Source: Gluconacetobacter asukensis | Lineage (GTDB): Bacteria; Pseudomonadota; Alphaproteobacteria; Acetobacterales; Acetobacteraceae | DNA: 64,000 nucleotides | Direction of reading: 5' to 3' | Assembly: GCF_014174375.1 (NCBI RefSeq) | Contig: NZ_JABEQE010000007.1 | Span: 124,001 to 188,000, forward strand | Shown here: positions 41,901 through 55,844 of the stretch, piece after piece | Layout of the letters: each line of letters opens with the position of its first letter | How positions within the stretch are numbered: the stretch's first letter is position 1 | Position numbers and translations under genes: made by a program | Notes under the pieces: generated by a model | What the model saw: only the letters and a program-made list of their open reading frames with translations | The model's database searches: none | What the model was told of the DNA's origin: nothing

Positions 41901-42065
41901 AGCGTGCAGAAGGAAGGGGGTGTCGTGCATCTCGTCGCACGCGAGATCACGGATCTTTCCGACCTTCTGGCCGATGTGGGCAACCGGGGGGCGGGTGGAG
42001 ACGATGGGGCAGGCGGCAGGGAGAGAACTGAAAGGGTTCTCGTAAAATCGAGAGATTTTCACTAA
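38901..42065 (+). CDS. dnaE2: Error-prone DNA polymerase DnaE2 (ImuC)
   Basis: Alpha-subunit-type DNA polymerase III used for SOS translesion synthesis and mutagenesis. The 1054-residue protein has an N-terminal PHP domain ([32 protein letters not shown]), the polymerase active-site strand [10 protein letters not shown], the fingers region with [29 protein letters not shown], and a C-terminal OB fold ([23 protein letters not shown], in segments). Length and domain order match DnaE2, shorter than replicative DnaE1. Last gene of the LexA-controlled cassette. Confidence 0.93.
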
Positions 42066-42086
42066 AGGTGGCGCCTGCCCATACGG

Positions 42087-42266
42087 TCAGAAAGGGGAAG
42101 GGCCGCCTGCCTCCGGGTCCGGCTCCTGTTCGTCGATCGCCAGGATGGCCTCTTCCCTGCTGGAGAAGGGACCTGCCAGAAGGATGGTGGTGCCATCCAT
42201 GATGTACCATCCGTTTTCACGAGGGGCGACGGGATCACTCCCGTCGTCAAGGTAGACTGCGATCAT
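42087..42266 (-). CDS. Small acidic protein of 59 residues, unknown function
   Basis: Starts MIAVYLDDGSDPVAPREN and ends GGPSPF, with an acidic tail (DEQEPDPEAGG). A GGAGG ribosome site lies five bases before the ATG, and the product has a sensible alternation of hydrophobic and charged residues, so I think it is real. It follows the DUF2934 gene by 96 bases on the same strand and faces the end of dnaE2. No family recognised. Confidence 0.6.
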   Translation of the reverse strand: MIAVYLDDGSDPVAPRENGWYIMDGTTILLAGPFSSREEAILAIDEQEPDPEAGGPSPF

Positions 42267-42362
42267 TCGAGCCTCCCATGGGTGACCTGTTCGGAACCTG
42301 ACGGCAGGATATTCTGCCGGGGATTGGACCGCGCGCAGCAGAAATCCTGTGTCGCTTGCGTG

Positions 42363-42698
42363 TCAGCTCTGGTCCTTCAGGGCCTTTTCCTCGTCCTGCC
42401 GGGTTGCGAAGGGCGTTTCCCGCTTGTTGTCCAGTTCGTTCATGTAGCCGCCCGGATTGCCCAGATTCTCTTCCAGCCAGGCTTCCTCGATGGGCTGGCC
42501 GTTGGCGTCGAGGGGAACGGGGGGCTCCACCGGGATCTGCCCGGCATCGGCATTGAGTTCCATCCCGATCAGGTCGGCGGCGGCTTCCTTGTAGGCCTCG
42601 GGGCCGGAAGCGGGCTTTCCGTCGGCGACCCACATCTCTTTCGCCTTGGCGAGAATGCGTGCGTCTCTTTCGGGGGAGGATTCCAGGGGGTTTTCCAT
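42363..42698 (-). CDS. DUF2934-like small protein
   Basis: A 111-residue protein. Residues about 11-46 (RDARILAKAKEMWVADGKPASG, in segments) resemble DUF2934, a short helical domain common in small stress-associated proteins. The remainder is proline- and acid-rich and probably disordered. It lies downstream of the encapsulin terminator on the same strand; the ribosome site before its ATG is AGGATAATTGGA. Role unknown. Confidence 0.6.
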   Translation of the reverse strand: MENPLESSPERDARILAKAKEMWVADGKPASGPEAYKEAAADLIGMELNADAGQIPVEPPVPLDANGQPIEEAWLEENLGNPGGYMNELDNKRETPFATRQDEEKALKDQS

Positions 42699-42794
42699 TC
42701 CAATTATCCTCGTAAAGGCCTGTGATGGGGCTGGCTGGTCCGGCGCGGTGCGGCTGGCTCCTGTGGGATAAAACGCTCCATGCCGGTGTCCGTT

Positions 42795-42818
42795 GCCCGC
42801 GCCCGTTCGGGCGCGGGC
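42795..42818 (-). terminator. Strong hairpin after the encapsulin gene
   Basis: Perfect 11-base stem (arms CCCGCGCCCG and CGGGCGCGGG plus a flanking G-C pair) with a two-base loop, starting six bases past the encapsulin stop. No U-tract, but stability and position fit a terminator or a 3' RNA stabiliser. Confidence 0.65.
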
Positions 42819-42824
42819 GGGCGA

Positions 42825-43640
42825 TCAGGCGGGGGGCCGTTCGGGCTGATCGAGGGCGACGGTCGCCTCGCTGGTCAGGACGCGGAAGACGAAGCTTTCC
42901 TGCAGGTACAATTCGACCGTATCCGCCGAGTGGGACAGATAACCGATCGAAAAATCCTGTCCGATATCCAGCGCCAAGTCGCCGCCGCGCATCGAGACGA
43001 CGAATGCGCCCTCGATGGCCGGTGCCCAGATGATCTTTCCGTCGATCATGCTTTCGATATGCTTGCAGACAGGATAGCCGTCATCGTCGCCGCCGCTGAC
43101 ATTGGCGAAGGCCTGGGCGCCGAGGACCACCGAATACGGGCCGTTCACGCCGGCCAGGCGCAACGCGTTCAGGGCGTCGGCGATGGCATGCGGGTAGTCC
43201 CTGGCCTGGGCGGGGAGCTTGAGATGGGCGTTCGACGTGCCGTTGCGGATGCCGGGGATGCAAGCCGCCGCATAGCCGTCAAAGATCGCGCGGTCTTCGG
43301 CGAAGGCGATCTGCTTCGCCGCGTCCTTGACGGGCTGCCAGTCGGAATCCAGCGATCCGCGCTCGACGGCGTCGATTTCCGTGCGCGACAGCGTGAAGGG
43401 GACGCGCAGTTCCACCAGCGGCAGGACCTCGCGTCGCAGGGCACGGATGCCGTTGCCGGGCGCATCGATCAGGGTGCCGCGCCCGGTGCCGATGCCTGCG
43501 AATGCGGTCCCCTTCGGTTCCGAGGTGTCGACGACGCGGCGGCCGGCCAGGTGGCGGCGAATGGTGCGTGAGGCCTCTTCCTCGATCTGCGCCCAGGCCG
43601 CGCTGGAGATGGGGGCTAGATGTCTGTGGAGATTGTTCAT
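42825..43640 (-). CDS. Encapsulin shell protein (family 1, linocin M18-like)
   Basis: Self-assembling HK97-fold protein that forms a nanocompartment. The 271 residues match the usual family 1 length (about 265), with N-terminal LAPISSAAWAQIEEEASRTI, the AGRRVVDTSEPKG region, REVLPLVELRVPFTLSR and a C-terminal DIGQDFSIGYLSHSADTVELYLQESFVFRV. The start lies one base beyond the DyP stop, and its ribosome site (AAGGAAGG) is inside the last codons of the peroxidase. This fixes cargo and shell expression together. The shell is predicted to hold the DyP peroxidase through its C-terminal tag. Confidence 0.92.
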   Translation of the reverse strand: MNNLHRHLAPISSAAWAQIEEEASRTIRRHLAGRRVVDTSEPKGTAFAGIGTGRGTLIDAPGNGIRALRREVLPLVELRVPFTLSRTEIDAVERGSLDSDWQPVKDAAKQIAFAEDRAIFDGYAAACIPGIRNGTSNAHLKLPAQARDYPHAIADALNALRLAGVNGPYSVVLGAQAFANVSGGDDDGYPVCKHIESMIDGKIIWAPAIEGAFVVSMRGGDLALDIGQDFSIGYLSHSADTVELYLQESFVFRVLTSEATVALDQPERPPA

Positions 43641-43641
43641 G

Positions 43642-44748
43642 TCAGATTTCCTTCCTTAAGGAGCCGATACCCAGCGAGCCGTCATGCGAGCCTGTGCCGT
43701 GCTGATCGGGGGAGGAGGCAGGGAGGGGGGGCTGGTCGTCCGGGTTGGACGCCTCGGGGGCTTCGGCGTCCATGTCCGGCGCGTTATCCAGGAACTCGGC
43801 AGTGGGAATGAAGAACAGGGCCCCGGTCACGGCCGTGCTGACATCGAGGAGCCGGTCGTAATTGCCGGGCGGCTTGCCGATGAACATGTTCTGCAGCATC
43901 TGTTCGGTGCGCGCGGGGGAGCGCGCATAGCCAATGAAATAGGTGCCGAATTCACCCTTGCTCACTTCGCCGAAGGGCATGTTGTCGCGCACGATCTGCA
44001 GTTGCTGCCCGTTCTCCTCGATATTGGTGAGGACGTTATGGGCATAGCTGGGCTTGGCCGCGTCGGCGAGTTCGATGTCCGATACTTTGCGGCGGCCGAT
44101 GATATGTTCCTGCACCTCGGTCGGGATGGCATCCCATTTCTTGAGGTCGTGCAGGTATTTCTGGACGATGACATAGCTGCCACCGGCAAAGGCGGGGTCT
44201 TCGTCGCCGACGATGGCCGCGTCGGTCGCGACCTGACCGGAGGGGTTTTCGGTGCCGTCCACGAATCCGAGCAGGTCGCGTTCGTCGAAATATTTGAATC
44301 CGTGGACTTCATCCACGACCTTGCCAGCGCCCGCCAGCCGGGAGACGATGGAAGCCGCGAGTTCGAAGCAGAGATCCATCCTGGTTGCGCGGATATGGAA
44401 GAGCAGGTCGCCCGGCGTGGCGGGGGCGTGATGCGCGCCCCGGATTTCCTGGAACGGATGCAGGTCCCGGGGGCGCGGGGTGCCGAAGAGTTGATCCCAG
44501 GCGTTCGAACCGATGCCGGTGATGCAGCTTAACCTCCCATCGGGGACCCGGAATCCGACACCGCGCACGAGAGAGGAGAGATCTCCCAGAAGATCGCGGA
44601 CCTGCGCGTTGATCGAAGGGTTCTCGCTTAATGTTGCAACAAGAAAAATTGCTGCCTGGGTCAGCTTCGTACCAACGGGTTGCGGTGTGGCCAACGGACT
44701 GAAACTCCCTGCGGACGGGCTCGTATAACGATCACGGACGTTCAGCAT
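43642..44748 (-). CDS. DyP-type heme peroxidase with encapsulin-targeting peptide
   Basis: Dye-decolourising peroxidase of 368 residues, cargo of the adjacent encapsulin. Family motif GFVDGTENP has the distal Asp164; proximal heme ligand His237 lies in YAHNVLTNIEENG, and Arg254 is in IVRDNMPFG. After the catalytic domain (to about 325) a Pro/Ser/Asp-rich linker leads to a C-terminal tag, GSLGIGSLR at 357-365, which matches the known encapsulin cargo-loading peptide. No signal peptide, so the compartment is cytoplasmic. Likely role: peroxide defence or oxidation of a trapped substrate. Confidence 0.93.
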   Translation of the reverse strand: MLNVRDRYTSPSAGSFSPLATPQPVGTKLTQAAIFLVATLSENPSINAQVRDLLGDLSSLVRGVGFRVPDGRLSCITGIGSNAWDQLFGTPRPRDLHPFQEIRGAHHAPATPGDLLFHIRATRMDLCFELAASIVSRLAGAGKVVDEVHGFKYFDERDLLGFVDGTENPSGQVATDAAIVGDEDPAFAGGSYVIVQKYLHDLKKWDAIPTEVQEHIIGRRKVSDIELADAAKPSYAHNVLTNIEENGQQLQIVRDNMPFGEVSKGEFGTYFIGYARSPARTEQMLQNMFIGKPPGNYDRLLDVSTAVTGALFFIPTAEFLDNAPDMDAEAPEASNPDDQPPLPASSPDQHGTGSHDGSLGIGSLRKEI

Positions 44749-45031
44749 AGGCAGATGACCGTTGATGACAAGATATCGGGATGGGCTAAATAACCAGAGC
44801 GATCACAAATCGCTCATCGTTATAACTGGTGTGCATAATACCATAAGCAAAAGGTCTTGGACGCCCCGCCCGCCGCGTGATCTAGCTGGGATGCTGGAAC
44901 ATCGTGGCAGGTCCTGCAGGACAAAATAACAGGCACGGCAGTCGCCCGTGGCGGGAAGACATCATCACGCTTCATTCCCGGAATCTGTCGCCTGACGCAG
45001 ACGCCGATGTCAGGCTTTTAGGAAGGTATAG
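44749..45031. promoter_or_regulatory. Divergent promoter region with 19-base palindrome
   Basis: 283 bases between the leftward peroxidase/encapsulin unit and the rightward oxidase operon. At 44797-44815 the arms GAGCGAT and ATCGCTC are perfectly complementary with a five-base spacer (CACAA), an operator-like site 49 bases from the peroxidase start. AT-rich elements that could be -10 boxes (CATAAT near 44834, TATAAC near 44822) lie just to its right. GGAAGG before cydA is a plausible ribosome site. Confidence 0.5.
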
Positions 45032-46462
45032 ATGCAGACCGCTGCCCTTGCGCTGATCCTGGCGCGCTTTCAGTTCGCCTTTACCGTGGGCGTTCATATC
45101 ATCTTCCCGGCCTTCTCCATCGGGCTGGCGGCCTATCTGGCCGTTCTGGAAGGGCTGTGGCTGAAGACCGGACGCCAAGTTTTTCTCGATCTGTATCGCT
45201 ACTGGATCAAGGCCTTTTCGATCGTCTTCAGCATGGGCGTCGTGTCCGGACTGGTCATGTCCTACGAATTCGGAACCAACTGGTCGGTCTTTTCGAGGAA
45301 GGCCGGGCCGATTACGGGTGTTCTTCTGTCCTACGAGGTCATGACGGCCTTCTTTCTGGAAGCAGGATTCCTCGGCGTCATGCTGTTCGGCATGAGCAAG
45401 GTCGGGCGCGGGCTGCATTTCGCCGCGACCTGCTGCGTTTCGGTGGGGACGCTGATTTCGATGACCTGGATCCTGGCATCGAATTCATGGATGCAGACCC
45501 CGCGCGGCTATACGATCGATCCGGCCACCGGGCGCTTCATGCCCGACGACTGGCTTGCCATCATCTTCAATCCGTCCTTTCCGTTCCGGCTGGTCCATAT
45601 GGGGCTGGCGGCGTTTCTCTCCGTCGCGTTCGCCGTGGGGGCGACCGGCGCGTGGCACATGCTGAAGGCGCGGCGGGCGGGGGCGATTGCGAGCGAGCCG
45701 GTCCGGGTGATGTTTTCCATGGCCATGTGGATGGCCGCGATCGTGGCGCCGCTGCAGATCCTGGCCGGTGATGCGCATGGGCTGAATACCCTGAAATATC
45801 AGCCCGTGAAGATCGCCGCGATGGAAGGCGACTGGGAGACCGAAGGACGGGCATCGGAGCTGCTGTTCGGCATTCCGAACATGAAGACGGAACGGACGGA
45901 TTATGCCGTGAAGGTGCCGCTTCTGGGCTCGCTGATCCTGACGCACAGTCTCGACGGCAAGGTGCCGGGGATGAAGGATTTCCCCCGTGACCAGCGGCCG
46001 CCATCGCCGATCATCTTCTTCTCGTTCCGCATCATGGTCGCGCTCGCCATGCTGATGGCGCTGGTGGGGTTCTGGTCGCTGTGGCTGCGCCGGACCAGCG
46101 CCCTGTTCACCAGCCCGGTCTTTCATCGTGTGGCGCTGTGCATGGCGCCTGCCGGCTTCATCGCGCTGCTGTGCGGCTGGATCACCACCGAGGTCGGGCG
46201 GCAGCCCTGGACGGTCTATGGTCTTCTGCGGACGGCCGAGAGTGTTTCGCCGATCGTCCTGTCCAGCATGGCGATGACGCTGGCGGCTTTCGTGGTGGTC
46301 TATGTGATCGTGTTCGGGTCTGGTCTGGTCATCCTGCTCCGCCTGCTGGGGCGTGCGCCGGAGGAAGGCGAGCATATTCCCAGCCCCGCGCACCCCGCCG
46401 ACGTGCTGGCGACGCATACGCATCCGGGGATCGCCGGCCCCATTCCCGATGAAGGAGCCTGA
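45032..46462 (+). CDS. cydA: Cytochrome bd-type quinol oxidase subunit I (CIO type)
   Basis: Quinol oxidase subunit carrying the hemes. The 476-residue protein has candidate heme ligands His22 (VGVHIIFPAFSIG), His189 (RLVHMGL) and Met335 (SFRIMVALAM), plus the quinol-site GRQPW motif. Its Q-loop is short (HGLNTLKYQPVKIAAMEGDWE, in segments), the mark of cyanide-insensitive oxidases rather than the long-loop E. coli CydA. About nine membrane helices. It heads a run of seven same-strand genes. Confidence 0.93.
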   Translation: MQTAALALILARFQFAFTVGVHIIFPAFSIGLAAYLAVLEGLWLKTGRQVFLDLYRYWIKAFSIVFSMGVVSGLVMSYEFGTNWSVFSRKAGPITGVLLSYEVMTAFFLEAGFLGVMLFGMSKVGRGLHFAATCCVSVGTLISMTWILASNSWMQTPRGYTIDPATGRFMPDDWLAIIFNPSFPFRLVHMGLAAFLSVAFAVGATGAWHMLKARRAGAIASEPVRVMFSMAMWMAAIVAPLQILAGDAHGLNTLKYQPVKIAAMEGDWETEGRASELLFGIPNMKTERTDYAVKVPLLGSLILTHSLDGKVPGMKDFPRDQRPPSPIIFFSFRIMVALAMLMALVGFWSLWLRRTSALFTSPVFHRVALCMAPAGFIALLCGWITTEVGRQPWTVYGLLRTAESVSPIVLSSMAMTLAAFVVVYVIVFGSGLVILLRLLGRAPEEGEHIPSPAHPADVLATHTHPGIAGPIPDEGA

Positions 46463-46465
46463 GCC

Positions 46466-47485
46466 ATGATGGATTTCGCGTATTGGCTCCCGATCGTGTG
46501 GGCCGTCATCCTGGTCGCCGCGATTACGATCTACGTCATTCTCGACGGGTTCGACCTGGGGATCGGGATGCTGTTCGCGCTGGAACGCGACCAGGGGCGG
46601 CGGGATGTGATGGTCAATACGATCGCGCCCGTGTGGGATGGCAACGAGACGTGGATGGTTCTGGGTGGCGCCGTGCTTTACGGCGTCTTTCCTGGGGCTT
46701 ACGCCACGCTTCTGCCGGCCTTCTACCTGCCGATCGTGCTGATGCTGCTGGCCCTGATCTTTCGTGGCGTGGCGTTCGAATTCCGCATCATGACGCGGGA
46801 TACCGCGCGTGAGGGGCTGTGGGAGATCGCTTTCATGGCCGGGTCCGGCATCGCCGCGTTCAGCCAGGGAGCGATCCTGGGCGGGGTGATCCAGGGCATT
46901 GCCGTGACCGACGGCGCCTTTAGCGGCGGCGCGTTCGACTGGCTGACGCCTTTCAGTGTTCTGTGCGGGGTGGCGGTCATGTGTGGATACGCGCTGCTTG
47001 GCGCGACCTGGCTGGTGTGGCGGACAACCGGCGTGCTGGAGGCATCCTGCCGCAAATGGGGTCGGTGGCTGGCTGTCGGATTGTTTCTTGGCATCGTGGC
47101 GGTCAGTCTGTGGACGCCGCTGCTGCATGCGCCCTATCTGCGGCGCTGGACCGACTGGCCGAATATCCTCTTCGTCGCGCCGGTGCCGGTGCTGGTCGTC
47201 GTGCTGGGGGTTTTGCTCGCCACGGGATTGCGTCGCGGCCATTCGCGGGTGCCGTTCCTGTGTGCGCTCGGCTGGTTTTTCCTGTGTCTCTCCGGTCTCG
47301 GGATTACGGTCTGGCCGTATGCCGTGCCGCCCAGCCTGACGCTGTGGGATGTGTCGTCGCCGCCGTCGAGCCAGTTCTTCCAGCTTGTCGGCACCGCCAT
47401 CCTGCTGCCGATCATCCTGACCTACACGATTTATTCCTACCGTGTGTTCCGCGGGAAAGTGACGGAAGCCGATGGCTATCACTGA
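46466..47485 (+). CDS. cydB: Cytochrome bd-type quinol oxidase subunit II
   Basis: Integral membrane partner of CydA, 339 residues with about nine helices. It opens with WAVILVAAITIYVILDGFDLGIGMLFA, the family signature, and has APVWDGNETWMVLGGAVLYGVFP. Starts three bases after cydA. Its last 14 bases overlap the next small gene. Confidence 0.93.
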   Translation: MMDFAYWLPIVWAVILVAAITIYVILDGFDLGIGMLFALERDQGRRDVMVNTIAPVWDGNETWMVLGGAVLYGVFPGAYATLLPAFYLPIVLMLLALIFRGVAFEFRIMTRDTAREGLWEIAFMAGSGIAAFSQGAILGGVIQGIAVTDGAFSGGAFDWLTPFSVLCGVAVMCGYALLGATWLVWRTTGVLEASCRKWGRWLAVGLFLGIVAVSLWTPLLHAPYLRRWTDWPNILFVAPVPVLVVVLGVLLATGLRRGHSRVPFLCALGWFFLCLSGLGITVWPYAVPPSLTLWDVSSPPSSQFFQLVGTAILLPIILTYTIYSYRVFRGKVTEADGYH

Positions 47486-47621
47486 GATCGTCAAGGGCAA
47501 TGGAGACGATGCGCCGAAGCGCTTTGGTGTGCGGATCGGGTGGTTCGTTGCCATCTGGGCGTTCAGCACGGTGGTGTTTTTTGTGGTGGCGTCTCTGCTG
47601 CACCTGCTTGTTCCCAAATAA
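47472..47621 (+). CDS. DUF2474-type small oxidase-associated membrane protein
   Basis: A 49-residue single-helix protein: MAITEIVKGNGDDAPKRFG, then VRIGWFVAIWAFSTVVFFV and a short tail ending LLVPK. The R-x-GWFVxIW-x-xS pattern matches DUF2474, small proteins regularly found after CIO-type cydAB and thought to play a part like CydX. Starts within the end of cydB, with GGAA before it, so it is translationally coupled. Confidence 0.82.
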   Translation: MAITEIVKGNGDDAPKRFGVRIGWFVAIWAFSTVVFFVVASLLHLLVPK

Positions 47622-47674
47622 CAGGGCGGCTCTTCGAATTTTCGACTGACAGCAGAAGTTCTGGACCTGGTTCG

Positions 47675-48124
47675 ATGATTTTTGACTTTGAGAGTGACTT
47701 CGCGGGCTCGCTGCGCTGTATCCCGATGATCGCACGGCAGAAGCTCGATATCGCCGGCATAAAACTGAGCCTGCGGCAATGGAGCCGTTTCTCCCGCGAA
47801 GAGCGGGGGCAGCTTGCCGATCTGCCGTGCGAGACGAAAGCGGAACAGGGGGCGTATCGGGCGCTGGTCCTGCATCTGATTGCGGTGCGGACCGATGAGC
47901 CGCCACGCCCGCTTGTCACGAATGGCTTTGACGACTGGCGGGAGGCCGACCGGATGCCTGAGGCCGTGCGGACGCAGGCCGAGGCGGATGGCGTGGCGCC
48001 CCCGACGCCGGAACAATGGGCCATGTTGACACCGCTGCAGCGTTTTGCGCTGATCAAGCTCGCGCGCTCGCAGCATGAGAACGAGAATTTCGTGCCGGCC
48101 ATGAGAGAATTCGGCGTCCTGTGA
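47675..48124 (+). CDS. Nitrate-reductase-associated (NarM-like) protein
   Basis: A 149-residue soluble protein matching the nitrate-reductase-associated family: MIFDFESDF, LRCIPMIARQKLDIAGIKLSL, W-x-x-F, and the C-terminal WAMLTPLQRFALIKLARSQHENENFVPAM. In cyanobacteria NarM is needed for active nitrate reductase NarB. Here no nitrate reductase is visible; the gene directly precedes an FdhF-like molybdopterin enzyme, so it is probably a maturation or accessory factor for that enzyme. I chose ATG 47675; a longer frame from 47540 overlaps the DUF2474 gene. Confidence 0.8.
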   Translation: MIFDFESDFAGSLRCIPMIARQKLDIAGIKLSLRQWSRFSREERGQLADLPCETKAEQGAYRALVLHLIAVRTDEPPRPLVTNGFDDWREADRMPEAVRTQAEADGVAPPTPEQWAMLTPLQRFALIKLARSQHENENFVPAMREFGVL

Positions 48125-48167
48125 CGGACGAGCGTATTCCCGGAAGCGGCCTTGGGAGGTTAATGTC

Positions 48168-50471
48168 ATGAGCAAAGAAAAACCGTCCGAGTTCAAGCCC
48201 TATCATCATCCGGCCGGCGGCTGGGGGGCGGCAGGCGCGACCGCGAAAGTGCTGATGGAGCAGAGCGTGCTCGTCAAAGGGTCGCGCGGGCTGCTGGCCA
48301 TGAACCAGCCGGGCGGCTTCAAATGCCCGAGCTGCGCGTTTCCGGACCCGGATCATCGCAAGACTCTGGAGTTCTGCGAGAACGGCGCCAAGGCGCTGGC
48401 GCATGAAGCGACGAAGGCGCGCGTGACGCGCGAATTCTTCGCGAAATACACCGTCACCGAACTGATGGAGAAGAGCGACTACTGGCTGGAGATGCAGGGG
48501 CGCCTGACCGAGCCGATGCGCTATGATGCCACGACCGACAAATATGTGCCCGTCGCGTGGGATGATGCCTTTGCGATGATCGGGCGCCATCTGCAGGCGC
48601 TGGACAGCCCGCATCAGGCGGAATTCTATACATCGGGGCGCACGGCCAACGAGACCGCGTTCCTCTATTCGATCTTCGTCCGGGAGTTCGGCACCAATAA
48701 TTTCCCCGACTGCTCGAATATGTGCCACGAGCCGACCAGCCGTGGGCTGCCGGCGTCGATCGGGATCGGCAAGGGCACGATCGTCATGTCGGATTTCGAC
48801 CATGCCGAGGCGATCTTTGTCATCGGGCAGAATACGGGCACCAATTCGCCGCGCATGATGACCAACCTGGTGGAGGCGAGAAAGCGCGGTGTGCCGATCG
48901 TGCTGATCAACCCGATGCCGGAACGCGCCCTGATCCGCTTTACGGAGCCGCAGGATGTGCTCCAGATGGCGACGTTCGGCTCCACTCCGATTTCCAGCGA
49001 ATTCGTCCATGTGCGGATTGGTGGGGATCTGGCCATCTTCAAGGGGATGATGCGGGCGCTCTTCGAGGCCGAGGAGCAGGGCGAGCGGGTGCTCGACATG
49101 GATTTCATCCAGCAGCACACGGCTGGTCTGGATGCGTTGCGTGACGACGTGATGGGCTGTTCGTGGGCCGATATCACCCGGATCTCGGGCGTGTCGGAGG
49201 GGCAGATCCGGCGGATCGCGGAGATCTATAAAAGGTCCAAGGCGACGATCATCTGCTATGGGATGGGCCTGACGCAGCATCAGGAAGGGTCGCGCCTGTT
49301 GCAGCAGGTGGCGAATCTGCTGCTGTTGCGTGGCAATTTTGGCAAGCCTGGTGCAGGCATTGCGCCGATCCGCGGGCATTCGAACGTGCAGGGCGACCGC
49401 ACCGTCGGCATCGACGAGAAGCCGACGCAGCGTTACCTGGATCGGGTCCGCGATGCGTTCGGCTTTGAGCCGCCGCGCACGCATGGTCACCATGTGCTTG
49501 AGGCGCTGGAGGCCATGGAAGCCGGCACCGCCAAGGTCTTTATCGGCATGGGCGGGAATTTCATCCGGGCGGTTCCGGACACCGATCGCTCCTATGACGC
49601 GATGCGGAAGCTTAACCTGACCGTCGGCATCGCGACCAAGCTCAATCGCGGGCATCTGGTGCATGGCAAGGATGCCCTGCTCCTGCCGGTGGTGGCACGG
49701 TCGGAGATTATTCGCACGGAAGCAGGTGAGCAGTTCGTGACCATCGAGGATGCGATGGCGAATGTGACGGCTTCGCGTGGCGTATTCGAGCCCGTCACCG
49801 AGCATGTGCGGCCGGAGACGGAGATCGTGTGCCGGATGGCCATAGCCACGTTGCCGCATTCGAAGACGCCGTGGGCGCGCTATATGGTCGATTATACGCC
49901 GATCCGTGACAAGATCGCCGAAGTCTATCCGGAGATCTATTCGGATTTTTCGGAGAAGATCAAGAATCCGAGGGGCTTTCACCTCGACATTCCGCCGCGT
50001 CGGCTCGTATGGCAGACGCCGAACGACAAGGCGAATTTTCTCGTGCTGCCGGGGCTGGAGGTGAATGTTCCGGTTGAGGATGCTGCGATGCTGCGTCTGG
50101 CGACGATCCGGTCGCATGATCAGTACAACACGACCATCTACAGCAATAGCGACCGCTATCGCGGTGTCTACAACAACCGGCTCGTGATCTTCATGAACAA
50201 GGAGGACATGAAGGATCGCGGGCTGGAAAACGGCACGGTGATCGGGCTGGAAACCTATAGCGATGACGGGTTCCGGCGTTATGTCGATGGGTTGACCGTG
50301 ATCGACTATCCGATGTCGCGTGGTGCCATTGCGGGCTATTATCCGGAACTCAATCCGCTGCTGCCGCTCGATTATTTCGACGAGATCAGCGGAACGCCGG
50401 CGGCCAAGTCCATTCCTGTCAAGGTGGTGGAGAGTGTTGCGTCGGCAGCGCCGATCAGGATTGCCGGGTAA
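48168..50471 (+). CDS. FdhF-like molybdopterin oxidoreductase alpha subunit (YdeP/Fdh4A type)
   Basis: A 767-residue Mo-bis-MGD enzyme. Near the N-terminus, CPSCAFPDPDH and EFCENGAK give C53, C56 and C70, fitting an atypical iron-sulfur site. NMCHEPTSRG supplies Cys186 as the likely Mo ligand, equivalent to selenocysteine in E. coli FdhH. Further motifs: VIGQNTGTNSPRM, GNFGKPGAGIAPIRGHSNVQGDR and the C-terminal cofactor-binding MNKEDMKDRGLENG. Members include YdeP and the fourth formate dehydrogenase of Methylorubrum extorquens. With fdhD next door, a sulfurated formate dehydrogenase is likely, but the substrate is not proven. No signal peptide. GGGAGG ribosome site. Confidence 0.88.
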   Translation: MSKEKPSEFKPYHHPAGGWGAAGATAKVLMEQSVLVKGSRGLLAMNQPGGFKCPSCAFPDPDHRKTLEFCENGAKALAHEATKARVTREFFAKYTVTELMEKSDYWLEMQGRLTEPMRYDATTDKYVPVAWDDAFAMIGRHLQALDSPHQAEFYTSGRTANETAFLYSIFVREFGTNNFPDCSNMCHEPTSRGLPASIGIGKGTIVMSDFDHAEAIFVIGQNTGTNSPRMMTNLVEARKRGVPIVLINPMPERALIRFTEPQDVLQMATFGSTPISSEFVHVRIGGDLAIFKGMMRALFEAEEQGERVLDMDFIQQHTAGLDALRDDVMGCSWADITRISGVSEGQIRRIAEIYKRSKATIICYGMGLTQHQEGSRLLQQVANLLLLRGNFGKPGAGIAPIRGHSNVQGDRTVGIDEKPTQRYLDRVRDAFGFEPPRTHGHHVLEALEAMEAGTAKVFIGMGGNFIRAVPDTDRSYDAMRKLNLTVGIATKLNRGHLVHGKDALLLPVVARSEIIRTEAGEQFVTIEDAMANVTASRGVFEPVTEHVRPETEIVCRMAIATLPHSKTPWARYMVDYTPIRDKIAEVYPEIYSDFSEKIKNPRGFHLDIPPRRLVWQTPNDKANFLVLPGLEVNVPVEDAAMLRLATIRSHDQYNTTIYSNSDRYRGVYNNRLVIFMNKEDMKDRGLENGTVIGLETYSDDGFRRYVDGLTVIDYPMSRGAIAGYYPELNPLLPLDYFDEISGTPAAKSIPVKVVESVASAAPIRIAG

Positions 50472-50510
50472 CCGTCAATCGCGGGCCTGTGGGTGGATGA
50501 GAGTCTCTTG

Positions 50511-51569
50511 ATGGACACAGATGCGTCGCTTGTGGACCGGCTCGGGCGCCCGATGCGGGATCTGCGGATCTCGGTGATGGATCGGTGCAATTTCCGGTGT
50601 CCGTACTGCATGCCGGAGGCGACCTATCATGAGGGATTTCGCTTTCTGGCGCCGCGTGAGCGGCTGGATTTCGACGAGATCGAGCGTGTCGCACGGGTTG
50701 CGGCAGGGCTGGGCGTGACCAAGCTGCGCCTGACGGGGGGCGAGCCGCTGCTACGCCCCGGCCTGCCTGAACTGGTCGCGCGGCTGGTGCGGGTGCCGGG
50801 CATCGAGGATGTCGCGCTGACCACCAATGGTGTGCTGCTGGCACGGTCGGCCGCTGTTCTTCGTGCGGCGGGCCTGCATCGTGTGACGGTGAGCCTCGAT
50901 AGTCTCGATGCGGCTGTGTTTGCCCAGATGAGTGGCGGGCGCGCGAAATTGTCGACTGTGCTTGACGGGATCGAGGCCGCGCGGGCGGCTGGATTTCCGG
51001 GCGGGATGAAGATCAATAGTGTCATCCAGCGGGGCGTGAACGATTCCGGTATTCTGGATCTGGCGGCGCGTTTTCGCGGCACGGATATTGTGCTGCGCTT
51101 TATCGAATATATGGATGTGGGAACCCGTAATGGCTGGGAGCGCGCCGATGTCGTGCCCTCGCGCGAAATATTGGCGCGGATCGATGCGCACTGGCCGTTG
51201 ATTCCTCTGTCGCCGAATTATCGCGGCGAGGTGGCGCGGCGCTATCGCTATGTCGATGGGGAAGGCGAGGTGGGGTTCGTTTCCTCGGTCAGTGCGCCAT
51301 TTTGCGGGGATTGTTCGCGCGCGCGGCTTTCTTCCGACGGAAAGCTCTATACCTGCCTCTTTGCGGCCGAGGGGACGGATTTGCGGGCGATCCTGCGTGA
51401 GGATGACACCGTGCAGGGCGATAGGAAGCTGCGCGCTACGTTGTCGGGTATCTGGCATGGCCGTGCGGATCGCTACAGTGAAGAGCGTGCGATTCCGCGC
51501 GGGTGCAGCGCCGTGAAGGGAAAGGCCCCGGCGGCGGAGAAAATCGAAATGCATTATATCGGAGGCTGA
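50511..51569 (+). CDS. moaA: GTP 3',8-cyclase MoaA
   Basis: Radical SAM enzyme that starts molybdopterin synthesis from GTP. The 352-residue protein has the SAM cluster motif CNFRCPYC (C26, C30, C33), GGEPLLR, and the C-terminal cluster ligands C265, C268 and C282 (CGDC and YTCL). The C-terminus ends HYIGG, the normal MoaA tail with its GG. A GTG at 50493 could add six residues. Its place here implies dedicated cofactor supply for the adjoining molybdoenzyme. Confidence 0.93.
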   Translation: MDTDASLVDRLGRPMRDLRISVMDRCNFRCPYCMPEATYHEGFRFLAPRERLDFDEIERVARVAAGLGVTKLRLTGGEPLLRPGLPELVARLVRVPGIEDVALTTNGVLLARSAAVLRAAGLHRVTVSLDSLDAAVFAQMSGGRAKLSTVLDGIEAARAAGFPGGMKINSVIQRGVNDSGILDLAARFRGTDIVLRFIEYMDVGTRNGWERADVVPSREILARIDAHWPLIPLSPNYRGEVARRYRYVDGEGEVGFVSSVSAPFCGDCSRARLSSDGKLYTCLFAAEGTDLRAILREDDTVQGDRKLRATLSGIWHGRADRYSEERAIPRGCSAVKGKAPAAEKIEMHYIGG

Positions 51570-51605
51570 ACGGCCGGTGCGGCCGGTTCTGGTAAGGTTA
51601 GCGGG

Positions 51606-52409
51606 ATGCCCTCTCTCTTTCACCGATTGCGCGTTACATCCCTGGGCCAACCTGACAGGGCGTTCGACCTGAATGTGGCCGATGAGGTGCCGGTCCGGCT
51701 GATCTTCAACGGGATCTTCTCCTATGGCGTCATGATGATGACGCCGGAGGATCTGGAAGATTTTGCAGTCGGTTACTGCCTGACGGAACAGATTGTCGGC
51801 ACGTCGGCGCAGATCCGATCGGTCGTGGTCGTGGAGACGGATGATGGCCTGACAGTGGATGTCTCGATCGCCGGAGATGCGTTGACGTCGCTGATCAGGC
51901 GCGGGCCGCGGACCCAGACCGGGCATTCGAGCTGCGGGATCTGCGGCAGCGATGCGGTGCCGTCCTGTGATGCCATCGGGGTGCCGGTATTGGGGCCGGG
52001 CCCGGTGGTTTCGACCGAGGCAGTGCAGCTTGCATTGAACGCGCTTGGTGAATGGCAGACGCTGAATGCGGCGACGCGGATGGTGCATGCGGCCGCCTGG
52101 GCCGATCGCGACGGTCGTATCCTGATGATTCGTGAGGATGTGGGGCGGCATAACGCGCTCGATAAGCTGATTGGCGCGCGGGCGCGCGGCGCCGAAGAAA
52201 CGGGCGAGGGGTTTTGTCTTCTGACCAGCCGCTATTCGTTTGAAATGGCCCTCAAGACGTTGCGGAGCGGGATCGCGATCGTCGTGGCGGTCTCGGCCCC
52301 GACCTACCGGGCTTGTCGGCTTGCTGAAACGATGAAACAGACATTGATCGCCATTGCGCGACGTGATGGGCAGGTTCTGTTCTGCGGCGGGGAGCGGCTT
52401 GTGCAATAA
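51606..52409 (+). CDS. fdhD: Formate dehydrogenase accessory sulfurtransferase FdhD
   Basis: Transfers sulfur to the Mo cofactor of formate dehydrogenases, a step needed for activity. The 267-residue protein has the functional C110-G-I-C113 motif (HSSCGICG), YGVMMMTPEDLEDFAVGYCLTE, and REDVGRHNALDKLIG. Its presence argues that the FdhF-like enzyme is a formate-dehydrogenase-type, sulfurated enzyme. Thirty-six bases after moaA. Confidence 0.93.
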   Translation: MPSLFHRLRVTSLGQPDRAFDLNVADEVPVRLIFNGIFSYGVMMMTPEDLEDFAVGYCLTEQIVGTSAQIRSVVVVETDDGLTVDVSIAGDALTSLIRRGPRTQTGHSSCGICGSDAVPSCDAIGVPVLGPGPVVSTEAVQLALNALGEWQTLNAATRMVHAAAWADRDGRILMIREDVGRHNALDKLIGARARGAEETGEGFCLLTSRYSFEMALKTLRSGIAIVVAVSAPTYRACRLAETMKQTLIAIARRDGQVLFCGGERLVQ

Positions 52410-52469
52410 GTGGGCGCCGGGCGGCAGGGTGGCGTACGGCGGCGTCGGTTGTGAATGAGAAGACGATAA

Positions 52470-53381
52470 ATGTTTCTGAGGCAGCTTCATTATCTTCGGG
52501 AAATCGACAGGCTGCGGAGTTTTTCGAAGGCCGCGGACGCGTGCAACGTTTCGCAGCCCGCGCTTTCACGCGCCATCAGGCAATTGGAAGACGAGCTTGG
52601 GGTCGTTATTATCGATCGCAAGAAGAAAGTCTTCGGGCTGACGGCTGAGGGTGCGCGCATACTGAAATGGGCGCATGATATCCTGCGCAGCGTGTCGGAG
52701 ATGCGGAATGAAGTTTCGCTGTCGCGGCAGGAGCTGGTGGGGTCGGTCAAGATTGGCGTCATCCCGACCGCCGTGCATATCGTTCCGATCCTCCTGGAAG
52801 CAATCAAGGAGAAGATCGGCGATTTTTCGAGCGATGTTGCCGTTCTTCCGAATGCGGACATTATCGAGAGGCTTGCCAGCAAGCAGCTTGATATCGGGAT
52901 CATGTATTATGACCAGTGCCCGCAGGCGCAGGCTTTTACGGTCCGGGCCCTTTATGCGGAAGAGCAGGTTCTGGCCGGTACCACGGCGTATGTCTTTCCC
53001 GACCAGGGGGAAATCAGTTGGGAGGAGGCCGCGACATTTCCGCTCGCCTTGCTCAGTCGCGGTATGCGCTGTCGCCAATTGGTGGATATCGGGTTTCAGA
53101 CTGCCGGGGTTGAGCCGATCATTCGTCTGGAGACCGCGTCATTGGAACTGATCCATGCCGAAATCATGCGTGGTGCCATGGTGACCATCCTGCCGCTATC
53201 CTCCTTTCCGCTACGGGTGCCGCCGGCCGGTCGCCTGCAGATGCGCCGGCTTGCCGGTTTTTCGCCGGGCGCGATCGGGTTGGTGAGGTTGAGCGAACAG
53301 CCGCCTTCGCCTTTCGTCGCGCGTGTCTGGACGGTCGCCCTGGAAACGGATTTTCGAGAGCAGCTTGGCAGTCTGTGCTGA
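52470..53381 (+). CDS. LysR-family transcriptional regulator
   Basis: A 303-residue regulator with N-terminal helix-turn-helix (MFLRQLHYLREIDRLRSFSKAADACNVSQPALSRAIRQLE, in segments) and a periplasmic-binding-like effector domain (VGSVKIGVIPTAVHIVPILL). It follows fdhD by 60 bases on the same strand. LysR proteins of this kind (FdsR) control formate dehydrogenase operons elsewhere, so it may sense formate or its metabolites and autoregulate the operon. That link is inference. Confidence 0.85.
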   Translation: MFLRQLHYLREIDRLRSFSKAADACNVSQPALSRAIRQLEDELGVVIIDRKKKVFGLTAEGARILKWAHDILRSVSEMRNEVSLSRQELVGSVKIGVIPTAVHIVPILLEAIKEKIGDFSSDVAVLPNADIIERLASKQLDIGIMYYDQCPQAQAFTVRALYAEEQVLAGTTAYVFPDQGEISWEEAATFPLALLSRGMRCRQLVDIGFQTAGVEPIIRLETASLELIHAEIMRGAMVTILPLSSFPLRVPPAGRLQMRRLAGFSPGAIGLVRLSEQPPSPFVARVWTVALETDFREQLGSLC

Positions 53382-53458
53382 TGGTATGTCAAAGCGCAAC
53401 AATATGGTTGCGCCTGGACGTCTGCGATAATAGGGTTTGAGCAACTGGGAGGTTGCTC

Positions 53459-53950
53459 ATGGAGACGGACAGGATCGAAAAGACGGTCGTGCTGAAGGCG
53501 GCGCACGACCGTGTATGGCGCGCGATCACGGATTCCACCCGTTTCGGCCGGTGGTTTGGCGTGGAGATCGATGGTCCCTTTATCGCGGGGCAGGAGGCGA
53601 TCGGGCGGATCGTCCCCACCCAGGTTGACCCGGATGTCGCCCGCATGCAGGAACCGTATCGCGGTACCCCCTGGCGTGTTCACGTCGAGCGGATCGAGCC
53701 TATGCGGCTGTTTTCGTTTCGTTGGCACCCATATGCCATCGATCCGGCCCATGATTATGCCGCCGAGCCGATGACGCTGGTCACGTTTGCACTCGAGGAG
53801 GTCGAGGGGGGCATCCGGCTTACCATTACGGAGACGGGTTTCGACCGGTTGCCGCTTGCCCGGCGGGCGGAGGCGATCAAGGCGAATGATGGTGGCTGGG
53901 CGCATCAGGCCAGGTTGGTGGAGAGATATCTCGCCCTGGGAGACGAGTGA
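53459..53950 (+). CDS. SRPBCC/AHSA1-family protein
   Basis: A 163-residue START-like domain: TVVLKAAHDRVWRAITDSTRFGRWFGVEI, then VERIEPMRLFSFRWHPY and LTITETGFDRLP. Such proteins bind small hydrophobic ligands in a helix-grip cavity. The GGGAGG ribosome site selects ATG 53459. It lies 69 bases before an ArsR-type regulator; these two families are commonly paired, though normally with the regulator first. Confidence 0.82.
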   Translation: METDRIEKTVVLKAAHDRVWRAITDSTRFGRWFGVEIDGPFIAGQEAIGRIVPTQVDPDVARMQEPYRGTPWRVHVERIEPMRLFSFRWHPYAIDPAHDYAAEPMTLVTFALEEVEGGIRLTITETGFDRLPLARRAEAIKANDGGWAHQARLVERYLALGDE

Positions 53951-54019
53951 GGCTCTGTTTGAAAAACAGGATTGCCCGGCAGGGGTGATTTTACAAATGG
54001 CCCCAAAGAAAGCGCGCTG

Positions 54020-54373
54020 ATGGAAAGCGGATATTGTTCGGACAGTCTGCAATCAGCGGTGCAGATTTTTGCGGCTCTGGGCGATCCGGTCCGCCTGTCG
54101 ATTGTCGCGCGACTGAGCGAAAACGGGCCGCTGCCCACCGTCCAGTTGAAGGACGGCACGGGGGGAATCACGCGTCAGGGTATCAACAGGCATCTGCGCG
54201 TGCTGGAAGATGCCGGGCTGGTGGAAAGCGCGCGGGTTGGCCAGGTTCGGCAATGGCAGTTACGGGCGCAACAGATCGCGATCATCCGCGAGCATCTCGA
54301 CCGGCTGTCGGCAGTGTGGGATGCCCGTATCGAAGGGCTTCGGGCGTTTGTCGAGGACGGCGATGAGCGATAA
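54020..54373 (+). CDS. ArsR-family transcriptional regulator
   Basis: A 117-residue winged-helix repressor: ALGDPVRLSIVARLSENGPLPTVQL, GINRHLRVLEDAGLVESARVGQVRQWQL. It lacks the cysteine pair of metal sensors, which fits the non-metal subgroup partnered with AHSA1 proteins. ATG 54020 gives the normal length; a longer frame from 53972 is unlikely. Confidence 0.82.
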   Translation: MESGYCSDSLQSAVQIFAALGDPVRLSIVARLSENGPLPTVQLKDGTGGITRQGINRHLRVLEDAGLVESARVGQVRQWQLRAQQIAIIREHLDRLSAVWDARIEGLRAFVEDGDER

Positions 54374-54404
54374 GGGGGCCTTCTCTTCGGAAACCGCCTG
54401 ACCG

Positions 54405-54584
54405 TCAGGCAATGAGGCTGTCGGTCACGATCTTGCCGCTCATGCCGTCGGTGATGCCGAGGTCGGTGACATGCGGCCCCGGATTGCAGGCGAGGCTGGC
54501 GCCGATCACCAGTTCGGGGTGGTATTTCCCGATGGGGCGGCATGGGTCGTAACGGGCGCGGGCTGGGTCGTGGGTGTCTGGCAT
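54405..54584 (-). CDS. Doubtful 59-residue ORF, possibly a gene remnant
   Basis: Reads MPDTHDPARARYDPCRPIGK, then a protein-like stretch (YHPELVIGASLACNPG, VTDLGITDGMSGKIVTDSLIA). The second half looks like real coding sequence, but I recognise no family. It overlaps the next candidate in another frame. Together they could be a single gene broken by a frameshift, or two small overlapping genes. Confidence 0.3.
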   Translation of the reverse strand: MPDTHDPARARYDPCRPIGKYHPELVIGASLACNPGPHVTDLGITDGMSGKIVTDSLIA

Positions 54585-54697
54585 GTGGCGGCCTTGTGCG
54601 TCGCCTTATGCTGCGTGGATGCGGTAAACGCCGGACCGCCACCGGTCCCGATGATGGAAACGGAGACTGTCAATAGAAGAACAGATCGTCCGACCAT
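54506..54697 (-). CDS. Possible 63-residue secreted peptide
   Basis: Starts MVGRSVLLLTVSVSIIG, a signal-peptide-like segment, then a Thr/His/Ala-rich tail ending NW. AGGAAAGAA lies directly before the ATG. It faces the LysR gene at 54930 across a 232-base gap holding a small palindrome, the classic layout of a LysR target. Composition of the tail is low complexity, so confidence is limited. Confidence 0.35.
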   Translation of the reverse strand: MVGRSVLLLTVSVSIIGTGGGPAFTASTQHKATHKAATCQTPTTQPAPVTTHAAPSGNTTPNW

Positions 54698-54744
54698 TTC
54701 TTTCCTGGCAGCATTGGCTTGTATTCCCTGGATCTTGCAATGTC

Positions 54745-54758
54745 AGAACGATAGTTCT
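54745..54758. promoter_or_regulatory. Small palindrome in divergent gap
   Basis: AGAAC and GTTCT arms around GATA, within the region between the minus-strand short ORFs and the LysR gene. TGTCAGA occurs at 54741 and again about 29 bases on. Candidate LysR binding site only. Confidence 0.3.
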
Positions 54759-54929
54759 CAATGTTGTCAGAGATAAATATTGCGATGATGCATCTTGTGG
54801 CGGAGAGTTTAATTTTTGTTCCTCAACGTTCTTGAGGACGGATTGCCGCGGATCGCATCGAAGAGGCCGTGATGCTGGCCCTGGTCCGGCCATGCCGTTA
54901 TCTTCGACAGGAATTCACAGATCGGAGCG

Positions 54930-55844
54930 ATGATGGATAACCGTGCGGGAGAGATGCTGGTCTTTGTCCGGGTCGCGGAGTCCGGTAGCTTCTCCGAAGC
55001 GGCGCGGCAGCTTCTGATGACGCCATCGACGGTCAGCAAGCTGATCGCGCGCATGGAAGATCGCCTTGGCGTGCGGTTGGTCGAGCGGTCGACGCGGCGG
55101 CTGTCGCTGACCGACGAAGGGCGTCTCTTCCATGAGCGGAGTGGTGCCCTGTTGGCGGAACTGGACGATATCGAGCGCGAGGTCGGTCAGGGCGGCAAGG
55201 GGGCCAGTGGCACGATCCGCGTCAATGCGTCGGTGGCATTCGGTGTGCTGGGGATCGAGCCGCTGTTGCCCGCGTTCTGGGAAACCTACCCGAACATGGT
55301 GGTCGATCTGTCGCTGTCGGACGAGATTGTCGATCTTTATCTTGATCGTGCCGATATCGCGTTCCGCGTGGGTCCGCTCGCGGATAGCAGCCTGCTTGCG
55401 CGCAGAATCGGGGTCGCACGCCGGAAGATCGTCGCCGCCCCGGCCTATCTTGAACGTCATGGCACACCGGTCACGATCGGAGATCTCGACCGGCATAACT
55501 GCCTTGGGTTCAATTTTCGGCGTGCGGCCCCGATCTGGCCGCTGAAGGATGGCGGACGGATCGTCGATCGGATGGTGGGTGGAAATCTGCTGGCCAATAA
55601 TGGCGAAACCGTACGGCGGCTGGCGCTGGCCGGAATGGGGCTGGCCCGTCTGGGCGATTACCATGTGCGGGAGGATATCCGCCACGGCCGGCTGATCGAA
55701 GTGCTGGACCAGGCCGGCCATGGCGACGAGGAAGAGGTCCATGCGCTCTATCCGGGTGGACAGCGCATGCCGCAGCGCATTCGGCTGTTTCTCGATTTCA
55801 TGATTCCGCGTTTGCAGATCTTCATGCGGAACGACCCTGCGTGA
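54930..55844 (+). CDS. LysR-family transcriptional regulator (second)
   Basis: A 304-residue regulator of the common one-component type: MLVFVRVAESGSFSEAARQLLMTPSTVSKLIARMEDRLG (in segments) gives the helix-turn-helix, followed by a LysR substrate domain (VDLSLSDEIVDLYLDRADIAFRVG). GGAG precedes the ATG. It converges on the mdaB-like gene, 24 bases away, and may regulate it or the short ORFs on its other side. Confidence 0.88.
   Translation: MMDNRAGEMLVFVRVAESGSFSEAARQLLMTPSTVSKLIARMEDRLGVRLVERSTRRLSLTDEGRLFHERSGALLAELDDIEREVGQGGKGASGTIRVNASVAFGVLGIEPLLPAFWETYPNMVVDLSLSDEIVDLYLDRADIAFRVGPLADSSLLARRIGVARRKIVAAPAYLERHGTPVTIGDLDRHNCLGFNFRRAAPIWPLKDGGRIVDRMVGGNLLANNGETVRRLALAGMGLARLGDYHVREDIRHGRLIEVLDQAGHGDEEEVHALYPGGQRMPQRIRLFLDFMIPRLQIFMRNDPA

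Follow-up and report, generated by a model that had tools for sequence, protein, structure and literature searches.

A 64,000-nucleotide stretch of the genome of Gluconacetobacter asukensis (contig NZ_JABEQE010000007.1, positions 124,001 to 188,000 of the forward strand; hereafter the window) contains a row of eight genes on the plus strand, cydA-cydB-DUF2474-narM-fdhF-moaA-fdhD-lysR, that joins a cytochrome bd quinol oxidase to a molybdenum enzyme of the FdhF/YdeP family and its accessory proteins. It is fairly probable that this row is a formate-response operon, concerned with both defence against formate and its oxidation, in which the bd oxidase would act as a formate-tolerant terminal oxidase. 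Each component is already known; what is new is how they are combined and how wide a range of neighbours NarM has. From cydA to lysR the intergenic gaps are 3, -14, 53, 43, 39, 36 and 60 bases, so that coordinates and profiles confirm the compact row, with gaps of at most 60 bases, set out in a preliminary description made from the letters alone. The locus reaches further left than that description had it, as divergent genes for a DyP-type peroxidase and an encapsulin belong with the cydA side. The features, with profile matches, are as follows.

42825-43640, minus strand: family 1 encapsulin shell protein (PF04454, E 5e-95)
43642-44748, minus strand: DyP-type peroxidase (PF20628, PF04261)
44833-44863, plus strand: conserved upstream element before cydA, candidate regulator site (alignment and pattern scan)
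45032-46462, plus strand: cydA, cytochrome bd oxidase subunit I, probably of the cyanide-insensitive oxidase (CIO) type (PF01654, E 3e-156)
46466-47485, plus strand: cydB, subunit II (PF02322, E 4e-95)
47472-47621, plus strand: DUF2474 small subunit, CydX-like, overlapping cydB by 14 bases (PF10617, E 4e-7; passages of PMC5322542)
47675-48124, plus strand: narM, nitrate-reductase-associated family (PF09655, E 2e-50; TIGR02664, 160.6 bits, cut-off 110)
48168-50471, plus strand: fdhF, FdhF/YdeP-type oxidoreductase with a bis-molybdopterin guanine dinucleotide (bis-MGD) cofactor, probable formate dehydrogenase (TIGR01701, 908.8 bits, cut-off 582)
50511-51569 (or from a GTG start at 50493), plus strand: moaA, GTP 3',8-cyclase (TIGR02666, 365.9, cut-off 284)
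51606-52409, plus strand: fdhD, sulfurtransferase for the formate dehydrogenase cofactor (TIGR00129, 160.3, cut-off 141)
52470-53381, plus strand: LysR-type regulator (LysR domains in a profile search)

FdhF is probably a formate dehydrogenase of the FdhF/YdeP family that functions with neither a beta nor a gamma subunit, to judge from its sequence and surroundings. The TIGR01701 score, the active-site residues and the presence of fdhD in the operon all bear out the earlier proposal of a sulfurated enzyme of the formate dehydrogenase type. C186, H187 and H404 are invariant in 137 of 137 YdeP-type rows, and R402 and H404 sit in the motif RGHSNVQG, kept in all 12 rows displayed; C186, H187 and R402, matched to residues of the E. 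coli enzyme FDH-H, form what we take to be the Cys-His-Arg set of formate dehydrogenases. Profile scans of the operon genes found no beta (Fe-S), gamma or diaphorase subunit among them, which agrees with the preliminary description as regards the first two. FdhF is the sole match to PF01568 (bis-MGD binding domain) in the genome (assembly 99.74% complete). The four-cysteine N-terminal ligand set for one [4Fe-4S] cluster is not found in the FdhF/YdeP rows: the only conserved N-terminal cysteines are C53 (133/137), C56 (134/137) and C70 (136/137), in the pattern CX2CX13C (FdhF residues about 51-75, window 48318-48392), so the Fe-S cluster of these enzymes may be unusual. Position 60, considered as a source of the fourth ligand, is D in 91 of the 137 rows, K in 26 and E in 11, and offers no clear ligand.

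The formate response of Pseudomonas putida provides the closest set of experimental observations for comparison. According to passages of PMC10308882, the P. putida YdeP-type formate dehydrogenases PP_0256 and PP_4596 are induced by formate, formate tolerance drops upon deletion of PP_4596 or of PP_0256 together with fdhD, PP_0256 and fdhD share one transcript, and moaA (PP_4597) is formate-induced. The same passages place cioA and cioB, overexpressed under formate, among the most significantly changed genes, with complex I down, and cite formate as an inhibitor of bacterial cytochrome c oxidases, which would supply the reason for a bd oxidase at this locus. The two organisms are alike in the enzyme family, the fdhD and moaA partners, the lack of a known further subunit and the cio genes, which in P. 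putida belong to the formate response; they differ in that the formate-induced genes scattered in P. putida are united in one row in the window, with NarM added. Among the matches listed in full-text searches, PMC10308882 was the only source in which YdeP/FdhF and a cyanide-insensitive oxidase occurred together, as expression data.

The cydA of the operon is the only PF01654 match in the genome, which has four heme-copper oxidase loci. Assignment to the CIO type is tentative: the CydA and CydB profiles and the DUF2474 partner fit it, and CydA has 476 amino acids versus 514 and 522 for the E. coli subunits. In its cydAB genes and DUF2474 small subunit the oxidase resembles the CIO-type cytochrome bd of acetic acid bacteria treated in passages of PMC5322542, from whose main text, unlike the present locus, formate is absent.

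Association of cyd with fdhF recurs beyond the acetic acid bacteria. Ten plasmid-borne YdeP-type hits outside that group (H24-H26, H35, H37, H39, H52, H53, H71 and H87), form a non-random set picked by identity and genus. In five of them cydA or cydAB lies no more than 8 kb away: Paracoccus sp. MA (where cydA is partial), Paracoccus denitrificans, Paraburkholderia caribensis, Bradyrhizobium sp. 184 and Bosea sp. F3-2, with cyd directly after fdhF in Bosea, P. denitrificans and P. caribensis. Both Paracoccus loci also have a transporter of the oxalate/formate (OFA) type and DyP-encapsulin genes. The pairing occurs with no NarM in the stretch in Paracoccus, Bosea, Bradyrhizobium and Paraburkholderia, and also in L139, L174 and L207, which are the only three cases among 80 YdeP-type regions. 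Of these regions 20 came from a class list and 60 from a phylum list, most genera contributing one or two, and contig ends truncate some of them. A rough model that assumes regions of 16.3 kb, a genome size of 5 Mb and either one or two copies of cyd gives a chance expectation of 0.26 or 0.52 versus the 3 observed (P 0.002 or 0.016), and none of 20 control regions with other formate dehydrogenase-like molybdoenzymes has a cyd pairing. The association is therefore probably genuine, though not a general feature.

Conservation of the operon was followed through NarM. A scan of 84,980 species genomes with a NarM alignment yielded 513 relatives; the 80 most like the window protein (the 80 named NarM loci) were retained, a ranking that biases them towards acetic acid bacteria. 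The closest named relatives are those of Gluconacetobacter tumulicola (95% identity), G. aggeris (94%) and G. takamatsuzukensis (93%). Across 14 Acetobacteraceae NarM loci of 19.5 kb each, the window's own counted, fdhF is adjacent to narM or one gene away in 13, and cydA is present in eight; in the remaining locus, L030, NarM adjoins fdhD, and a search of the genome at E 1e-100 gave no YdeP-type enzyme. The end of cydB lies 168-229 bases 5' of narM in 28 of the 80 named loci, and these cyd-linked loci span Gluconacetobacter, Komagataeibacter, Acetobacter, Novacetimonas, Acidomonas, Brytella and Gluconobacter morbifer. Many relatives have a LysR gene at the end of the operon, and other neighbours include moeA, moaC, moaE and mobA-like genes, with moaD and moaE on a Komagataeibacter plasmid. 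A second moaA scores above the cut-off elsewhere in the window's genome (genome profile search).

The operon is plasmid-borne in several Komagataeibacter strains (L162, L067), a location from which it may be mobile. An Acetobacter pasteurianus plasmid (L159, 9001-9171) retains only a narM fragment (residues 1-57), beside an IS3 element; a search confined to the surrounding 18 kb found no YdeP-type fdhF. Downstream of lysR the window has genes for an AHSA1-domain protein and an ArsR-type regulator (53453-54373, plus strand), an arrangement preserved in the closest relatives.

In a first FastTree phylogeny, whose labels took in short loci, NarM-linked FdhF of acetic acid bacteria fell in one clade of 49 rows, with NarM-less members, including Paracoccus, nested within it and with L131 and L136 as separate NarM links outside it. 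The tree row L019_3979, a second Kozakia-type enzyme (45%), is NarM-linked by distance only. The tree was rebuilt with long stretches only and unknowns omitted (L136 was left out as a short stretch), and 175 rows were reduced to 146 by dropping those at least 97% alike, 130 of them with full flanks. On the rebuilt tree NarM, present in 42 of 136 labelled rows, requires at least 6 changes; the CIO (31 of 134) requires at least 7, and DyP or encapsulin (20 of 132) at least 9.

NarM is reportedly needed for nitrate reductase activity in Synechococcus. The window protein aligns over its full length (residues 2-146 on positions 1-145 of the TIGR02664 model) above the curated cut-off, so that the homology proposed earlier stands; it is like the NarM of the cyanobacterial narB-narM pair (named together in passages of PMC13366656) in family, and unlike it in that its client here would be a YdeP-type formate dehydrogenase in a genome with no nitrate reductase found. 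NarM is rare, occurring in 10 of 60 relatives, 3 of 385 class genomes and 6 of 398 phylum genomes (the window's genome counted). The nearest molybdoenzyme in each fetched stretch was taken from the best tblastn match to eight reference enzymes drawn from the window and the NarM loci (three YdeP-type, four Nas-type and one FdsA). Among the best 80 of 513, 52 have a YdeP-type enzyme nearest to NarM, 17 a Nas-type and 4 an FdsA-type one (for L135 the match is partial and lies at a contig end); in the other 7, all cyanobacteria, the stretch gave none. The NarM-FdhF adjacency of the preliminary description is thus a recurrent one, while its statement that NarM is known only from the nitrate reductase of cyanobacteria does not hold for sequence data, in which the gene lies beside YdeP-, Nas- and FdsA-type enzymes in Pseudomonadota and cyanobacteria.

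NCBIfam scans of nine NarM neighbours, seven of them molybdoenzymes, placed the neighbours in L131 (a proteobacterial metagenome-assembled genome) and L136 (a cyanobacterium) in the YdeP type above the cut-off, and that in L120 as FdsA-like (formate dehydrogenase alpha profile, 922 bits, cut-off 666). In L108, L112, L114 and L126 the formate dehydrogenase alpha profile TIGR01591 is the first or second match, with NasC, NasA and NapA close and all below the cut-off, so "Nas-type" is a label of our own. L117 also has a nitrite reductase large subunit near NarM. The Nas-like enzymes near NarM in L108 and L112 are fused to a CysJ-like flavoprotein (1327 and 1398 amino acids), and in L120, L121 and L123 (Steroidobacter, Peristeroidobacter) NarM stands tail to tail with fdhD and an FdsA-type formate dehydrogenase alpha gene. 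Three genomes from a different family (f216, perhaps Burkholderiaceae) have NarM and fdhD in divergent orientation, and none of the queries used matched a molybdoenzyme beside NarM. The YdeP, Nas and FdsA neighbours and the divergence to fdhD fit a maturation role near the FdhD step, and NarM may, on this genomic distribution, be one factor for several molybdenum enzymes; the suggestion of a general maturation factor in the preliminary description accords with this survey.

Because FdhF was the only protein matched in the PF01568 search of the window's genome, no nitrate reductase client was found there, and NarM is without a known nitrate reductase to serve in the genome as assembled. PF01568 content was compared in 17 further genomes. 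G035 has NarM and three PF01568 matches, all YdeP-type; seven NarM genomes (G001, G004, G006, G007, G010, G011 and G021) have both a YdeP-type and a Nas-fusion-sized protein; and G008, G291 and G369 show other mixtures of NarM and PF01568 proteins. A fixed tie between NarM and nitrate reductase in the host family fails in both directions: G002 and G014 have PF01568 frames of 1318 and 1359 amino acids, likened to the L108 Nas fusion by size and not by family scan, and no NarM, while the window's genome and G035 have NarM and no Nas-fusion-sized protein.

NarM is better read as a maturation factor or chaperone than as an electron carrier. That it might be a small electron-transfer subunit of FdhF, as the preliminary description also considered, could be argued from its position beside catalytic subunits without obvious redox partners. 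This is highly improbable: no CxxC occurs in any of 54 aligned NarM sequences, the recurrent C15 (50/54), C52 (44/54) and H134 (50/54) are each lost in some members, so that no conserved metal-ligand motif is left, and NarM is also divergent to fdhD in the f216 genomes with no molybdoenzyme found beside it. The AlphaFold model is all-helical (ten helices, mean predicted local distance difference test score 91.1); none of the 15 PDB matches from a Foldseek search reached E 0.001. The Fdh4A/Fdh4B pair of Methylorubrum extorquens, in which a YdeP-type large subunit has a neighbour protein, may be a parallel to FdhF and NarM. Fdh4A is reported to be 59% identical to the P. putida YdeP-type enzymes (passages of PMC10308882). 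No link between NarM and a formate dehydrogenase appeared among the matches listed in full-text searches, whose coverage excluded most subscription journals.

The divergent pair upstream of cydA has the marks of a family 1 DyP encapsulin: the shell protein, the DyP profiles and, near the C-terminus of the peroxidase, the sequence GSLGIGSLR, which resembles the encapsulin cargo targeting motif GSLxIGSLK (passages of PMC10960027). Among the 28 named cyd-linked loci, 14 have the pair in this divergent position before cydA, and for some of the remaining 14 the fetched stretch stops soon after cydA; the strict targeting-peptide pattern was found in 4 of 18 relatives' stretches (L022, L028, L077 and L080) and not in the other 14. 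YdeP-type enzymes also have DyP or encapsulin nearby in two Paracoccus loci, in L207, L225 and L055, and in Burkholderia pyrrocinia, and five other DyP-encapsulin neighbourhoods had no YdeP-type enzyme in 13-21 kb. The encapsulin region of the M. extorquens megaplasmid (L259) matched only DyP and encapsulin among the queries used.

An encapsulated DyP adjoins a formate dehydrogenase in enterobacteria as well, where the operon of formate dehydrogenase, DyP, encapsulin and RpoH has the formate dehydrogenase gene upstream (passages of PMC10960027 and PMC12140327); unlike the molybdenum enzyme of the window, which is unrelated and comes with a bd oxidase, the enterobacterial enzyme is NAD-dependent according to a figure legend of PMC10960027. 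In the Klebsiella aerogenes plasmid copy the stretch matches an annotated NAD-type formate dehydrogenase at 29%. A Burkholderia pyrrocinia plasmid (L256) holds an NAD-type formate dehydrogenase, DyP, encapsulin and a YdeP-type formate dehydrogenase inside 13 kb. That formate dehydrogenases of two unrelated kinds adjoin one and the same peroxidase compartment is a hint, though no more than that.

Between the two transcription directions lies a conserved element of 31 bases, GCATA-N5-ATA-N3-ARAARGTNTTGGACG, which ends 169 bases 5' of cydA; a pattern scan located it in 17 of the 28 named cyd-linked loci, at a distance of about 105-200 bases from cydA on the 5' side, and Komagataeibacter is not represented among the 17. 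A possible -35 box, TTGGAC (44857-44862), lies within the element, and a possible weak -10, GATCTA (44879-44884), lies beyond its end. A copy with three mismatches precedes the DyP gene of L067, which is located away from cydA, and a further three-mismatch match, in L208, is not in such a position. The LysR protein is probably the regulator of the operon, and control of both directions by it through the element is a guess. Rfam gave no match across window positions 42000-55000, and a sigma-70 scan (2 matches versus 2.3 expected) was uninformative on internal promoters.

If the operon answers to formate, FdhF would be a cytoplasmic YdeP-type enzyme oxidizing formate to CO2, for which MoaA would raise cofactor synthesis and FdhD would sulfurate the Mo-bis-MGD cofactor. 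NarM would be a private chaperone, either helping to insert the cofactor into FdhF or stabilizing the apoenzyme, and would belong to a family of maturation factors used by bis-MGD enzymes of the cytoplasm, from assimilatory nitrate reductases and FdsA to YdeP-type formate dehydrogenases. The CydAB-DUF2474 bd quinol oxidase would sustain respiration while formate inhibits the heme-copper oxidases, and would re-oxidize the quinol finally yielded by formate oxidation. The divergent encapsulated DyP peroxidase would handle the peroxide side of the same stress, and the LysR protein would switch on both directions through the conserved element.

Several observations weigh against this proposal. The authors of the P. 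putida study propose that cioAB is overexpressed in response to the pH increase that follows formate, and not to formate itself (passages of PMC10308882). Apart from G. morbifer, four Gluconobacter loci with enough sequence have no cydB found by narM-fdhF, the same is true of Asaia loci, and L083, L085 and L096 give only fragmentary cyd matches while fdhF is intact; the oxidase would therefore seem dispensable to the formate dehydrogenase. The cyd pairing is also rare among the 80 YdeP-type regions. The congeners G002, G003, G009 and G012, whose genomes are without NarM, have fdhD and a 68-69% identical FdhF, and the FdhF of G014, another genome without NarM, is 81% identical, so NarM is not needed for every enzyme of the YdeP type. 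An A. leguminum plasmid has NarM with no annotated molybdoenzyme within 8 kb.

The compact arrangement could also be read as a direct chain from formate to oxygen: FdhF, bound to the membrane or to CydAB, would itself reduce ubiquinone, and the two enzymes together would make up a minimal formate oxidase that has no beta or gamma subunits. The Bosea stretch, with fdhF and cydA annotated 2 bases apart on one strand and no beta or gamma subunit annotated, speaks for such a chain, as do the same-strand matched stretches 45 bases apart in P. denitrificans and 85-88 bases apart in P. caribensis. It is nevertheless unlikely, for 77 of the 80 YdeP-type regions are without a cyd neighbour, many acetic acid bacteria have narM-fdhF without cyd, and the Pfam scan of FdhF, which was not aimed at membrane anchors, gave two molybdopterin domains only. 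The fuller version, in which NarM is a general insertion chaperone and the encapsulated DyP a peroxide guard for the minimal FdhF-CydAB chain, is held to be just as unlikely. Acetic acid bacteria live on fruit, and the operon might instead deal with plant cyanide converted to formate and ammonia, the insensitive oxidase protecting respiration while the formate dehydrogenase burns the formate. In Pseudomonas pseudoalcaligenes cioAB is cyanide-induced and a formate dehydrogenase gene is induced by cyanide-containing residue (passages of PMC6368324), but the P. putida response is to formate alone (passages of PMC10308882). No nitrilase or cyanide hydratase was found among the operon genes, the only part of the genome examined for them, or in the incompletely annotated neighbourhoods looked at in relatives, those of a Komagataeibacter plasmid, Paracoccus and Bosea among them, and we regard this explanation as quite improbable.

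We give still less credence, as very improbable, to a locus for general oxidative or acid stress with FdhF as another YdeP-like oxidoreductase, such as a reductase removing chlorate or other oxyanions. E. coli YdeP is linked to acid stress (passages of PMC10308882), YdeP-like genes co-occur with chlorite dismutase (passages of PMC9751292) and the DyP-encapsulin pair is a stress system, but the Cys-His-Arg active site of the formate dehydrogenase kind, FdhD in the operon and the OFA transporter near the Paracoccus homologues point to formate, and the P. putida homologues act in formate tolerance (passages of PMC10308882).

The formate-response operon proposed here gives NarM a testable client outside nitrate assimilation and suggests that one maturation factor may serve three kinds of cytoplasmic bis-MGD enzyme. 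It would also provide a physiological setting in which to ask what electron acceptor the lone YdeP-type formate dehydrogenases use, and why an encapsulated DyP peroxidase adjoins formate dehydrogenases of two unrelated kinds.

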